Origin: a virus | Strand: one strand, 5' to 3' | Virus record (IMG/VR): IMGVR_UViG_3300050120_000138 | Span: 1 to 34,323 of that record | DNA length: 34,323 nt | In this document: positions 20,991 to 25,395 of the stretch, piece after piece | How positions within the stretch are numbered: the first letter of the stretch is position 1 | Layout: each line of letters opens with the position of its first letter | Program-made: the position numbers and the translations under genes | The notes under the pieces: model-generated | What the model was told of the DNA's origin: nothing | What the model saw: the letters and a program-made list of their open reading frames with translations, nothing else | Databases searched by the model: none

Positions 20991-23372
20991 ATGCCCGATT
21001 TCACTCTGACATCACCGGAAGGTAAGAGCTACACTGTTAGTGGGCCTGAGGGGGCTACGAAAGAACAAGCCTTTCAGGTGCTGCAACAGCAGCTTTCTGC
21101 GGGCACTGCGAAGGAAGCGGCCCCTTCCACAGCTGGCAGCCGAGCGAAGCAAGCCATTGCCGACCTCAAGCCTGACCTCAAGATGGACGAGGCTGGCAAA
21201 CCAGTCCCCACCCCCACAGTCAAATCGGCTCTGGAGGCTATCGGCACTTCCACAGCCTTCGGCGGGGCTCTCGGAGCAGCATCTCCCGAAATCCTCACTG
21301 GAGCTGGCTATGCGCTTAGCTTTATCCCTGATGTTGGACCGACGATCGGTGCGGCTCTCATGGAGGCGGGCACGGCAGCTAGAGCTTCCAGGCTTGCCTA
21401 TGCCGGGTCCGGGGCTCTGTCAGGACTCGTTGGGGAAGCTGGAGGGCAGACAGCAGAAGCCGCAGGAGCCTCTAAGGGAACCGCAGATGCAGCTAGATTG
21501 GTTGGAGGGATGGCAGCAGGTCCAGGGTTAGCACTGGTGAGTAAGGCCAAGGGGCTCTTTGGGGCAGTCGCTGAGAAGCTCGGACTGATGGCTGCCACGG
21601 ATGCGAATGTGGGGAAGGCTGCGGCCGCTCTCAGAGGGATTGAAGATGCTGGAGTTCCCGCGAATGCTCTGCATCAGACCCTGCAGCAAGGAGCCGACGC
21701 ACATATCCAGGATGCGCAGAAAGCCGGTGAGAAGGTGATGGCTGATGCACGGCAGAGAGCGGCTGATGTAGGTTCGCAAGATGCAAAAGCAGCCCAGAAG
21801 GTGCTGGACGATGGGAAGTCTCGCGCGGATCAGATCGTTGCTGAGGCGAAGAAACGGGCAGCGGATTTGAATAAGGCATCTGGCAATCGGATGGCTACCG
21901 CAGGAAAGGTGCTGGCACAAGCAGAGCCGTCTCTGCGAGTTGTCGGGCAGCCTAGAGAGATCTCGGATATCGGTAAGGAACTGCAAACGGCAGTCTCGCA
22001 GGAGCATCAGGCCGCTCTGGATGCCCGGACGAAAGCCTACAACAATCTGAAGGACCAGCGGGATTCGATAGTAAAGAGCAAGGAGCAGGCTGGGCAGACC
22101 GTTGAGCAGACTGAAGGGATGAAGGATCTGAAGAGCTATATCAAGGGGAAGACAGATGCCAACGCATCCCCACGGCAGACTACGGATCAAGGCACTCTGC
22201 GGGTGTACGGACAGGTGAATGAAGCCCTGCAGAATCCGTCTTTCGAGGCACTGGATCAGGTGCGGAGGAAGCTGGGGGATGTGCTCGGAGGTAGGGATGT
22301 GGAAGGGTATTCGGCGGTAGGGAAGGATGTAGCCGGGAAGTTGTACGCGAAGATCAGCGACATCCAGAAGGAATTTGTTGGCAAGGATGCCGCTGGAACC
22401 AACCTTCAGCAAATGATGCAGGAGCAATATCATGATGCTTCGCTGGGACTTAGGAAGTTTGGCACGGGCGCAGGAGGCAAAGCAGCGGCGATTGACAGAG
22501 TTGACCCAGAAAGGTTTGCAGCAGACCCAGCTGGAGTGCCCAAGCAGTTCTTCTCTAGCCAGCAGTCAGTACGTGATCTCAAGGAACTCACCGGAGACTC
22601 GGGACTGGTGCAACGGGCAGGGAGTAGTTACGTCAGCAGTCAATTACGAGGAATGTCAGCCAAACAGGTCGAGGGGTTTGCTCAGAAGAATTCGGACTGG
22701 ATTCGGGAAGTGCCTGGATTATCTAAATCGGTAGCTGACTATGCAACGAGACTTGCGAAAATCGAGAGTACGGCGTCTAAAGTTCAAGCGAATTCAGAGA
22801 ACCTTGCTAAAAGAGGCGCTGCCATCCCTGTGGAAGCTGAGGCAGCAGCAACGCGAGAACGGTCGGAAACGATTAGCAGAGCAGGGAAGATAGGGGAGGG
22901 GTCAGTAGATACCCAGAGCAGGGTGCTGCAGGAAGGTGGGAAAGCGGCAGGGGAGGCTGCGAAAGCGGCAGCGGCTCCAGCGGCAAATCTGAAAGCTATC
23001 CTGAACGGAGGGGAAAGGCCAGAAGCAGTCCGCGACCTCTTACTTAATGGTAAGCCAGAGCAGACCCGGCTGGCAGCTAGGATCAGCTCGCAGACTCCTG
23101 AAGGAAGAAAGGCTCTGGAAGGGAGTGTGCGGCAGATCACGGCTGATATGAAAGAGGGGACGCTGCAGAAGCAGTGGAATGAAAGGCTGAAACCGATGCT
23201 GACCGACGGGAAGATGCTGACCCCAGATCGGATGAAGGCTCTGACTAAGGATGTGGAAGGGCTGTTAAAATCCTACTCGGGGAAGCCCCCTGTCGGGTTG
23301 ATGCAGAGAATGATTATGGGAGCGGTATATTCGGCGGGGGGTAATTATGTGGGACAGGATCCGAGGGAGTAA
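20991..23372 (+). CDS. Large internal virion / DNA transfer protein (gp16-like position)
   Basis: A 793-aa protein starting after GAGGATTT. The N-terminus MPDFTLTSPEGKSYTVSGPE then GATKEQAFQVLQQQ is a short domain I know from phage injection proteins. Residues about 80-200 hold hydrophobic Ala/Gly-rich segments (STAFGGALGAASPEILTGAG; VGGMAAGPGLALVSKAKGLF) able to enter a membrane. The remainder is almost all helical with Ala/Lys/Gln repeats (AQKAGEKVMADARQRAADVG) and ends YSAGGNYVGQDPRE. It is the last and largest of the three ejection-type genes. No lytic transglycosylase motif is visible. Palindrome copy 7 begins 4 bp after its stop. Confidence 0.75.
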   Translation: MPDFTLTSPEGKSYTVSGPEGATKEQAFQVLQQQLSAGTAKEAAPSTAGSRAKQAIADLKPDLKMDEAGKPVPTPTVKSALEAIGTSTAFGGALGAASPEILTGAGYALSFIPDVGPTIGAALMEAGTAARASRLAYAGSGALSGLVGEAGGQTAEAAGASKGTADAARLVGGMAAGPGLALVSKAKGLFGAVAEKLGLMAATDANVGKAAAALRGIEDAGVPANALHQTLQQGADAHIQDAQKAGEKVMADARQRAADVGSQDAKAAQKVLDDGKSRADQIVAEAKKRAADLNKASGNRMATAGKVLAQAEPSLRVVGQPREISDIGKELQTAVSQEHQAALDARTKAYNNLKDQRDSIVKSKEQAGQTVEQTEGMKDLKSYIKGKTDANASPRQTTDQGTLRVYGQVNEALQNPSFEALDQVRRKLGDVLGGRDVEGYSAVGKDVAGKLYAKISDIQKEFVGKDAAGTNLQQMMQEQYHDASLGLRKFGTGAGGKAAAIDRVDPERFAADPAGVPKQFFSSQQSVRDLKELTGDSGLVQRAGSSYVSSQLRGMSAKQVEGFAQKNSDWIREVPGLSKSVADYATRLAKIESTASKVQANSENLAKRGAAIPVEAEAAATRERSETISRAGKIGEGSVDTQSRVLQEGGKAAGEAAKAAAAPAANLKAILNGGERPEAVRDLLLNGKPEQTRLAARISSQTPEGRKALEGSVRQITADMKEGTLQKQWNERLKPMLTDGKMLTPDRMKALTKDVEGLLKSYSGKPPVGLMQRMIMGAVYSAGGNYVGQDPRE

Positions 23373-23375
23373 TTA

Positions 23376-23403
23376 ACCGCTATTACTATTTTGTAATCCC
23401 GGT
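23376..23403. repeat. Dispersed palindrome copy 7
   Basis: The core is ACCGCTATTA, spacer CTATTTTG, then TAATCCCGGT. It follows directly on the stop of the ejection protein gene and opens the gene-free region that ends at 24069. Confidence 0.92.
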
Positions 23404-23462
23404 CGATTAGTGGCTGATTGGAAAAGAAGAGATTTGGTGGGAAGTAGGACAACCGCAACAAC

Positions 23463-23538
23463 GGCTCGCGGGGCGGAGAGTACCTATCCGAGCGGGGCAT
23501 AGGCTCCGGGGGAGTGACGGTAGGTAGATTCGCGAGCC
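23463..23538 (+). other. Folded region upstream of the candidate RNA gene
   Basis: GGCTCGCG (23463-23470) is exactly complementary to CGCGAGCC (23531-23538), closing a 76-nt unit. Inside, CCTAT (23483-23487) pairs with ATAGG (23499-23503). No credible gene lies here on either strand. If transcribed from upstream it would form a branched structure just before the promoter at 23546. It might instead be a protein-binding site. Confidence 0.5.
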
Positions 23539-23545
23539 TCCCCTA

Positions 23546-23574
23546 TTGCAATCGTCAACGGAATCCGGCATAAT
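23546..23574 (+). promoter_or_regulatory. Sigma-70-type promoter inside the gene-free region
   Basis: TTGCAA (23546-23551), a 17-bp spacer and CATAAT (23569-23574) match four and five of six bases with ideal spacing. Transcription would start near 23581. No gene start follows for 490 bp, but a folded segment and a terminator do, so the natural product is a short RNA. Confidence 0.6.
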
Positions 23575-23580
23575 CATTAC

Positions 23581-23803
23581 ATGGTGAAGAGAGGGGGAAG
23601 GCTGATCCCCTTCCACGGAAAGGCCCTCTCCTCGCCCCCTCAACTTTCTTGTCTTACTGCACACTAGCTGCAGAGTGGAGTCCAACCCAGATACACCGCC
23701 TAATGCTCGACTGGTCTTGGCCAGCGAGGGACTATAAATAAATACCAGCTTCCTGTGTGCAGACAGAAAATTCCCGAAGGAGAGATCCTGGCGGGCTTTT
23801 TCT
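23581..23803 (+). ncRNA. Candidate structured non-coding RNA, about 220 nt
   Basis: The segment runs from a sigma-70 promoter to an intrinsic terminator without a credible reading frame. Seen pairings: a 5-prime hairpin closed by GAGAGGG/CCCTCTC with inner GGAAGG/CCTTCC (about 23587-23628); a domain closed by CTGCACAC (23657-23664) with GTGTGCAG (23755-23762). That domain encloses CTCG-a-CTGG (23706-23714) paired with CCAGCGAG (23721-23728); the terminator stem follows. Long-range complementarity of 7-8 bp at several nested levels is more than expected by chance in such a short stretch. It does not look like a tRNA or tmRNA, nor clearly like 6S RNA, whose ends would pair. Function unknown: packaging RNA, polymerase or defence decoy, and antisense regulator are all open. 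Confidence 0.58.
23773..23801 (+). terminator. Intrinsic terminator of the candidate RNA
   Basis: CCCG (23773-23776) pairs with CGGG (23792-23795), with an inner GGA/TCC pair around GAGA. CTTTTTCT follows immediately. The stem is interrupted, so moderate strength is expected. It would end transcription well before the ATP-grasp gene. Confidence 0.6.
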
Positions 23804-23862
23804 GCTGGCTTTCCGGTTTTCGGCTTGTTGGGCTAGGAAACAATACTGCTTTTTCGTTTTCG

Positions 23863-23890
23863 ACATACATTACTTTTTGTTAATCCCGGT
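23863..23890. repeat. Dispersed palindrome copy 8 (best outer arms)
   Basis: The core is ACATACATTA, spacer CTTTTTGT, then TAATCCCGGT. Here the outer arms are perfect: GTTTTCGAC (23856-23864) against GTCGAAAAC (23889-23897), giving a 42-bp symmetrical element. It lies between the terminator at 23801 and the folded leader of the ATP-grasp gene. Confidence 0.94.
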
Positions 23891-23907
23891 CGAAAACCCC
23901 GAGCGTT

Positions 23908-24069
23908 AGCGAGAGTCCCCCACCTCCCTATGCAATTCCCCTTCAGCGACCTGCTACCCCCTCCTTGCTGCTACAATCCTTCTCATCGCGCGCACGCAGC
24001 TACTCTTATAAGAAGTTGCGGTAGCAGCTTGCCACATTGTAGGGTCTCTCGCTCCGCTCGGGCTTACTA
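23908..24069 (+). promoter_or_regulatory. Folded 5-prime leader of the ATP-grasp gene (riboswitch- or attenuator-like)
   Basis: AGCGAGAG-T-CCC (23908-23919) pairs with GGG-T-CTCTCGCT (24042-24053), an 11-bp stem with one T-T mismatch that closes just before the start codon at 24070. Inside, GCTGCTAC (23967-23974) is exactly complementary to GTAGCAGC (24021-24028), and an inner hairpin forms around CTTATAAG with CGCA/TGCG. No Shine-Dalgarno sequence is seen next to the ATG. The nesting suggests control by RNA structure; the ligand, if any, is unknown. Confidence 0.52.
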
Positions 24070-25395
24070 ATGAAGATCTTGTTAATTGATAGCTCCGCAT
24101 TCTTTCTGGACTTCGCCATGCGCTGCGAGGCTCAGGGGCACGACGTCCGGGTGTGGATCGCCCCCGATGAGAAGACCTTCGAACGGGTTTCCATTGGCGA
24201 CGGGCTAGTCAGAAAGGTCCCGACCTGGGAAGGGTCAATGTCATGGGCAGACCTGATTTTGGTTTCCGACAATTGCCGCTATATGAAGCGGCTGGAAGGC
24301 TACCGACAACGCGGGTTTCCAATCTTCTCCGCCAACGTTGAAGGTACTTCCTGGGAAATGGATCGGCTGAAGGGGCAGGAAGTGCTGGAGCAAGCCGGGA
24401 TTGAGTGCCTCCCCTGCATTAAATTCTCTAATTGGGACGATGCAATCTCCCATCAGAAAGCTAATTTGGATGTCCGATATGTTTGCAAGCCCTGCTCCGA
24501 CGTGGACAAAGCTCTCAGCTACGTCAGCAAGTCAGCAAAAGACATGATCTTCATGCTGCAACATTGGAAGCGGACGATCAAAAAGCCATGCCCGTTTATC
24601 TTTCAGGAGTTTTGCCCAGGGATTGAGGTGGCGGTAGGTGGCTGGATGGGCCGGAATGGCTTCCTCGGGCACGTGCTGGAGAATTTCGAGCATAAAAAGC
24701 TCATGAATGATGAGAAAGGGCCGAACACAGGGGAGCAAGGAACGGTTATCAAATACGTTCCCATCGGCGAATCGAAGCTGGCTCGTGAGTTGCTCTTACC
24801 TGTAGAAGCGGAATTGATCCGGTCGGGCTACACTGGCTATATTGATGTGGCCGCGATGCTCGGAACAGAAGGCCCCCGTAAGGGTCTCCTAAACCCACTC
24901 GAATTCACCTCCCGGCATGGTTGGCCCTTGTTCCTAATTCAGCAGGTCCTGCATCATGATGTGGTCAGCTGGATGAAGGACGCGGCCGATGGGCGGGATA
25001 CCTTTCAGCCGTCCGATGAGATTGCTGTAGGCGTGTTCCTGTCGATGCCGGATTTCCCTTACCATCATCTTAAGGAAGACCAGCTGTCCGGCTTCCCTGT
25101 CTGGGGCATCACCAAGGAGAACCGTTATTTCTTCCATCCCTTCAATATGAAGCTTGGAGAGGGGATTGATGATAAGGGAGCGACGGTCCCTATGATGGTG
25201 ACGGCGGGGAATGCTATTGCGACCGTGACGGGGGTCGGTAGGACCGTGGAGGAGGCGAAAATCGATGCCTACGGCCATCTTTCGGAGTTGGAGATTCCCA
25301 ATTCTCCAATGTATCGAACCGACATCGGCGACCGCCTCCGCGATCAACTCCCCATCCTGCAGAAGTATGGCTACTGCACTAGCTGGAGCTACTAA
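24070..25395 (+). CDS. PurD-like ATP-grasp ligase
   Basis: A 441-aa protein with the layout of phosphoribosylamine-glycine ligase (GARS/PurD): a Rossmann-like N-domain (MKILLIDSSAFFLDFAMRCE; SWADLILVSDNCRYMKRLEG), a lid/B-domain (VRYVCKPCSDVDKALSYVSK) and the ATP-grasp core. The core carries PFIFQEFCPGIEVAVGGWMG, FEHKKLMNDEKGPNTGEQGT (GARS proper has GPNTGGMG) and LLNPLEFTSRHGWPLFLIQQ with metal-binding Glu/Asn-type residues. The C-terminal part resembles the GARS C-domain. It should join a carboxylate and an amine with ATP; the substrate is unknown. Its place among tail genes is odd for purine synthesis and suggests modification of a virion or host component. It has no visible ribosome site and follows a folded leader. 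Confidence 0.8.
   Translation: MKILLIDSSAFFLDFAMRCEAQGHDVRVWIAPDEKTFERVSIGDGLVRKVPTWEGSMSWADLILVSDNCRYMKRLEGYRQRGFPIFSANVEGTSWEMDRLKGQEVLEQAGIECLPCIKFSNWDDAISHQKANLDVRYVCKPCSDVDKALSYVSKSAKDMIFMLQHWKRTIKKPCPFIFQEFCPGIEVAVGGWMGRNGFLGHVLENFEHKKLMNDEKGPNTGEQGTVIKYVPIGESKLARELLLPVEAELIRSGYTGYIDVAAMLGTEGPRKGLLNPLEFTSRHGWPLFLIQQVLHHDVVSWMKDAADGRDTFQPSDEIAVGVFLSMPDFPYHHLKEDQLSGFPVWGITKENRYFFHPFNMKLGEGIDDKGATVPMMVTAGNAIATVTGVGRTVEEAKIDAYGHLSELEIPNSPMYRTDIGDRLRDQLPILQKYGYCTSWSY

Follow-up and report, generated by a model that had tools for sequence, protein, structure and literature searches.

A predicted small-RNA gene exchanged as a cassette in an accessory slot among phage virion genes

The 697-nt non-coding gap at positions 23373-24069 of the viral contig analysed here (34,323 bases, the whole of which is referred to as the window) holds what, judging by its conservation in relatives, is a genuine small-RNA gene of the phage, equipped with a promoter and a terminator of its own (Table 1). 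In our view the structured RNA gene is very likely real. Comparison with related phages shows it to be an exchangeable accessory gene, moved between phages as one cassette, and we place it in a new family of narrow distribution within a known kind, the phage sRNAs. The setting is unusual, an accessory slot among virion genes being occupied by an RNA gene. The contig encodes terminase, portal, capsid, tail fibre and lysozyme, with DNA polymerase genes on the opposite strand, and the annotated phages closest to it are MW202796 and Alcaligenes phage vB_Af_QDWS535. From the sample numbers, we take the habitat of the source metagenomes to be bog.

Table 1. Features of the predicted RNA gene, its slot and its neighbours, in window coordinates.
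Feature	Position	Strand	Details
Upstream neighbour	20991-23372		793-aa virion-region gene
Hairpin element A	23462..23540	+	GGCTCGCG...CGCGAGCC; left slot border, outside the RNA
Sigma-70-type promoter	23546..23574	+	TTGCAA (23546-23551), 17 nt, CATAAT (23569-23574); read directly
Small RNA, ~220 nt	23581..23803	+	Predicted from conserved structure in 4 distinct sequences; ends placed by the -10 box (5') and the terminator (3')
5' hairpin	23583..23636	+	GAGAGGG (23589-23595) / CCCTCTC (23624-23630), inner GGAAGG/CCTTCC
Rod domain	23657..23762	+	Four helices, P1-P4
Rod helix P1	23657-23664/23755-23762		CTGCACAC / GTGTGCAG
Rod helix P2	23666-23670/23746-23750		
Rod helix P3	23679-23683/23729-23733		
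Rod helix P4	23706-23714/23721-23728		CTCGaCTGG / CCAGCGAG
Conserved internal loops of the rod			CAGAGTGG, AGATACACCG, TATAAA; bulge TTCC
Intrinsic terminator	23773..23802	+	CCCGaAGGA (23773-23781)-gaga-TCCTggCGGG (23786-23795)-cTTTTT (to 23801)
Palindromic dispersed repeat	23860..23893	.	Right slot border; one of ~11 intergenic copies in the window
Downstream neighbour	24070-25395		441-aa gene, same direction as the RNA

Direct reading of the sequence found the promoter, the three named stems and the terminator of the first-pass annotation where it had placed them; helices P2 and P3 of the rod are additions to that account. Taken by itself, the promoter motif is at chance level (one found against 0.7 expected) and the folding energy is modestly unusual (z of -2.7 in the window; two homologues gave -2.5 and -4.9). 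The terminator contains an internal loop and escaped a strict terminator scan, and P3 is thermodynamically weak in the window, with a probability of 0.16 compared with 0.98 for the other types. The promoter match and fold energy alone would be compatible with a chance fold, the region being no gene and at most an operon terminator beside promoter-like sequence, but compensatory changes and conserved unpaired loops extend across ~200 nt and the promoter spacing is conserved; this reading is highly improbable. What places the RNA gene above chance is conservation, namely the same promoter hexamers and spacing in every homologue, and compensatory substitutions in hairpin, rod and terminator.

The same gap was collected from many viral contigs by searching with the neighbouring proteins, and five of them have a homologue of the RNA in the corresponding position, down to ~73% identity. 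The RNA, described at first as an orphan, therefore belongs to a small family, with three sequence types besides that of the window (L006 = L010/L064; L011 = L012/L065/L066; L086 = L096). Promoter hexamers and their 17-nt spacing are identical in all types, with differing spacer letters. The two-part shape of the 5' hairpin is retained with other letters, GGAGGGGG/CCCCCTCC and CTGGG/CCCAG in L012, and CAGAGAGGGG/CCCCTCTCTG with inner CCGGTC/GACCGG in L086; its inner helix is wholly different in letters among the window, L012 and L086, and for L012 the energy model favours another inner pairing. Across the types, P2 and most internal-loop letters are invariant and the letters of hairpin and linker vary freely, and the invariant positions would fit a surface for binding or for a tertiary fold. 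No peptide or reading frame is common to the types, in agreement with the initial view that the region lacks a credible frame; a shared peptide was rejected as the open frame of one type is broken in the others.

Folding three sequences together with RNAalifold gave 64 pairs, 10 of them with double-sided compensatory change. After L086 was added, three pairs of the terminator carried such changes and 97.1% of cells in the rod and terminator were paired, with a covariation score of 0.270 against 0.126 in shuffled alignments, a value reached by none of 500 shuffles, although the three truly divergent types limit statistical power. Sliding the partners by 1-3 columns reduced the paired cells to 28-46%. 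Two further measures, pairs with a change on both sides and further pair types, were reached by 14 and 349 of the 500 shuffles, respectively, which leaves the paired cells and the covariation score, on few sequences, as the support. P3 has three unpaired cells, which reflect a one-base misalignment of L086, where AGTCC/GGACT is intact by eye. The covariation check with homologous intergenic regions that the first-pass annotation proposed yielded compensatory changes in hairpin, rod and terminator, and a conserved protein frame, which would have counted against it, did not appear; both outcomes support its structured RNA gene with a dedicated promoter and terminator.

A covariance model of rod and terminator scored 143-171 bits on the homologues and found nothing else above chance in the loci compared. 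Motif scans of viral contigs and prokaryote genomes, checked with this model, detected no homologue outside the lineage, these scans requiring exact motifs that distant homologues could escape, and BLAST of the intergenic region against phage and plasmid records returned no matches or chance matches only. The suggested Rfam search matched no family at gathering score anywhere in the window, and permissive E-values (up to 5 or 3) brought only chance-level matches for the window and for two homologues. These searches bear on a 6S-like function, in which the RNA would mimic an open promoter and occupy host RNA polymerase. The long rod with internal loops, the roughly right length (~200 nt for the likeness to 6S RNA) and the apparent dependence of the phage on the host polymerase would suit this role, but none of three types matched an Rfam 6S model, permissive E-values included, and the RNA differs from 6S RNA in its asymmetric loops, its additional 5' hairpin and its carriage on an exchangeable phage cassette. 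A 6S-like RNA is very unlikely.

Exchange is visible between the two borders of the slot. Element A occurs in nearly all relatives and the cargo 3' of it differs. Over 269 nt, the cassettes of the window and L006 share 98.9% identity; because their flanks are only 80-88% identical (85, 82, 80 and 88%), the cassette has moved as a unit. Immediately to the right of the slot, the window matches L007 and L009 at 98.6-99.5% identity; both of these lack the RNA and carry an ORF in the slot instead, of 102 aa in L007 and 131 aa in L009. Elsewhere the slot holds a 130-aa ORF (L004), a 142-aa ORF related to those of L009 and L004 (L092), an 80-aa ORF (L005) or an HNH-endonuclease-like 91-aa ORF (L003:4369-4644).

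Several further observations concern the slot. The HNH-like ORF of L003 suggests that homing could drive exchange at this slot. Element A, in which 5 of 21 consensus pairs show double-sided change, is kept even where an ORF has been inserted before it (L007), and L086 has lost the 3' strand of the element's closing stem. A different element, D, which some sister phages carry in the slot, consists of a near-perfect TTGACA-N17-TATAAT promoter followed by ~110 nt (at L004:4634, L005:4619, L009:4637 and L092:3609), and was not found in contigs carrying the RNA. Its ~110 nt contain a conserved GCTAGGG...GTTTTG hairpin...CAGTCTAGTTTT and may be a second RNA gene.

The patchy occurrence of the RNA also weighs on two functions tied to its location. 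A packaging RNA of the phi29 pRNA type was among the original candidates, and phi29 packaging RNA resembles ours in being a structured RNA adjoining virion genes. The packaging machinery differs, however, as the terminase is an ordinary large subunit (phrog_38, E 9e-67) with no phi29-type packaging motor, and many sister phages with the same neighbouring genes do without the RNA; on these grounds the probability of a packaging role is close to nil.

The second such function is that of a leader attenuator or riboswitch for the downstream gene, the rod sensing a ligand and the terminator acting as the switch. The product of that gene matches, weakly and below threshold, the C-terminal domain of the ATP-grasp enzyme GAR synthetase; a homologue 45% identical to it, L101:42140-43444 (MW202796.1), has no annotated feature in the public record. 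Conserved internal loops that lead straight into a terminator, with a gene following in the same direction, would suit an attenuator, and the fold of L086 pairs the linker with the terminator arm. Against this, thermodynamic folding gave no anti-terminator helix common to three types, L007 and L009 keep the same leader and gene without the RNA, and in L006 and L012 extra sequence with a short frame lies between RNA and gene. Since a conserved anti-terminator is lacking and the downstream gene with the same leader exists without the RNA, we regard attenuation as distinctly unlikely. The leader itself, 23893-24069, is long and C-rich, and its complementary ends CCCGAGCG...CGCTCGGG co-change in some relatives.

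Regulation in trans by base-pairing was considered as well, an unpaired loop of the RNA pairing with host (or phage) mRNAs. Most phage sRNAs of known function act by base-pairing (PMC12197685), and two conserved loops, AGATACACCG and CAGAGTGG, are largely unpaired. On 40 phage start regions, however, the conserved loops did no better than shuffled ones (fractions 0.17-0.985), the best pairing for L1, which involves the leader of the 24070 gene, is by inspection broken in L012 and uncompensated, and the linker is not conserved. The antisense regulator of the first-pass annotation therefore found no significant target among phage start regions, and we regard such an RNA as possible but rather unlikely.

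We instead favour a stand-alone phage gene that would produce a folded non-coding RNA of ~220 nt, acting in trans through its rod. Action through the fold is proposed because the internal loops are invariant, linker and hairpin change freely and no antisense target was found among the 40 phage start regions; the rod would most likely serve as a decoy or scaffold by binding a protein of the host or the phage, a decoy being among the original candidates. Promoters of the sigma-70 type imply transcription by the host polymerase. From these hexamers, and from the lack of an annotated RNA polymerase gene in the two nearest phage records, the RNA is probably transcribed by host RNA polymerase, and would be transcribed alone, requiring no phage activator. 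It would be an accessory trait that aids the phage in particular hosts and not an essential virion part. The chances that this whole explanation is right, mechanism included, seem to us evenly balanced.

The records of MW202796 and vB_Af_QDWS535 have neither an RNA polymerase nor an integrase annotated. A search with the RNA polymerase model PF00940 gave no match, but carries no weight since its control gave none either, and an integrase search with a working control found none in the window or four relatives, records that may be fragments; the absence of integrase from these possibly fragmentary records suggests a lytic life style. The dispersed repeat at the right border of the slot is a ACCGGGATTACTAAATAGTAATCCCGGT-like palindrome with copies at window positions 1475, 3281, 4877, 11196, 14592, 18299, 23376, 23869, 25649, 30315 and 32493, in either orientation and usually with one half well conserved. 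It looks like an operator for a dimeric regulator, and one relative (G001) encodes two HTH_3 proteins. A reading of the repeat as a T7-type promoter was dropped, given that it is palindromic and occurs in either orientation.

Small non-coding RNAs encoded by phages are a known kind, including lambda OOP and PreS, DicF, IpeX, AgvB and misc_4 of phiR1-37, and the length of our RNA is near those of misc_4 (296 nt) and ipeX (167 nt) (PMC12197685). The known examples are mostly from prophages or temperate phages and base-pairing (PMC12197685), whereas the present RNA comes from a lineage in which no integrase was found and has a conserved structured rod and no detected Rfam relation. GOLLD and ROOL are likewise structured RNAs that are often phage-borne, but they are far larger (PMC12286853), and our RNA has no Rfam match.

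Small proteins acting on the host are sought in phage accessory slots, and here such a slot is occupied by a predicted RNA gene exchanged as a cassette. Its strong structural conservation makes the RNA directly testable, and the covariance model is a ready means of finding more members. One bolder reading, which we consider unlikely as it stands, is that a new RNA family is traded like a protein-coding accessory gene and uses its folded shape to capture a host protein or to neutralise a host defence, element D being a second, unrelated RNA doing the same job. Should the RNA indeed act on host defence or transcription, RNA genes would belong in searches of phage accessory slots.
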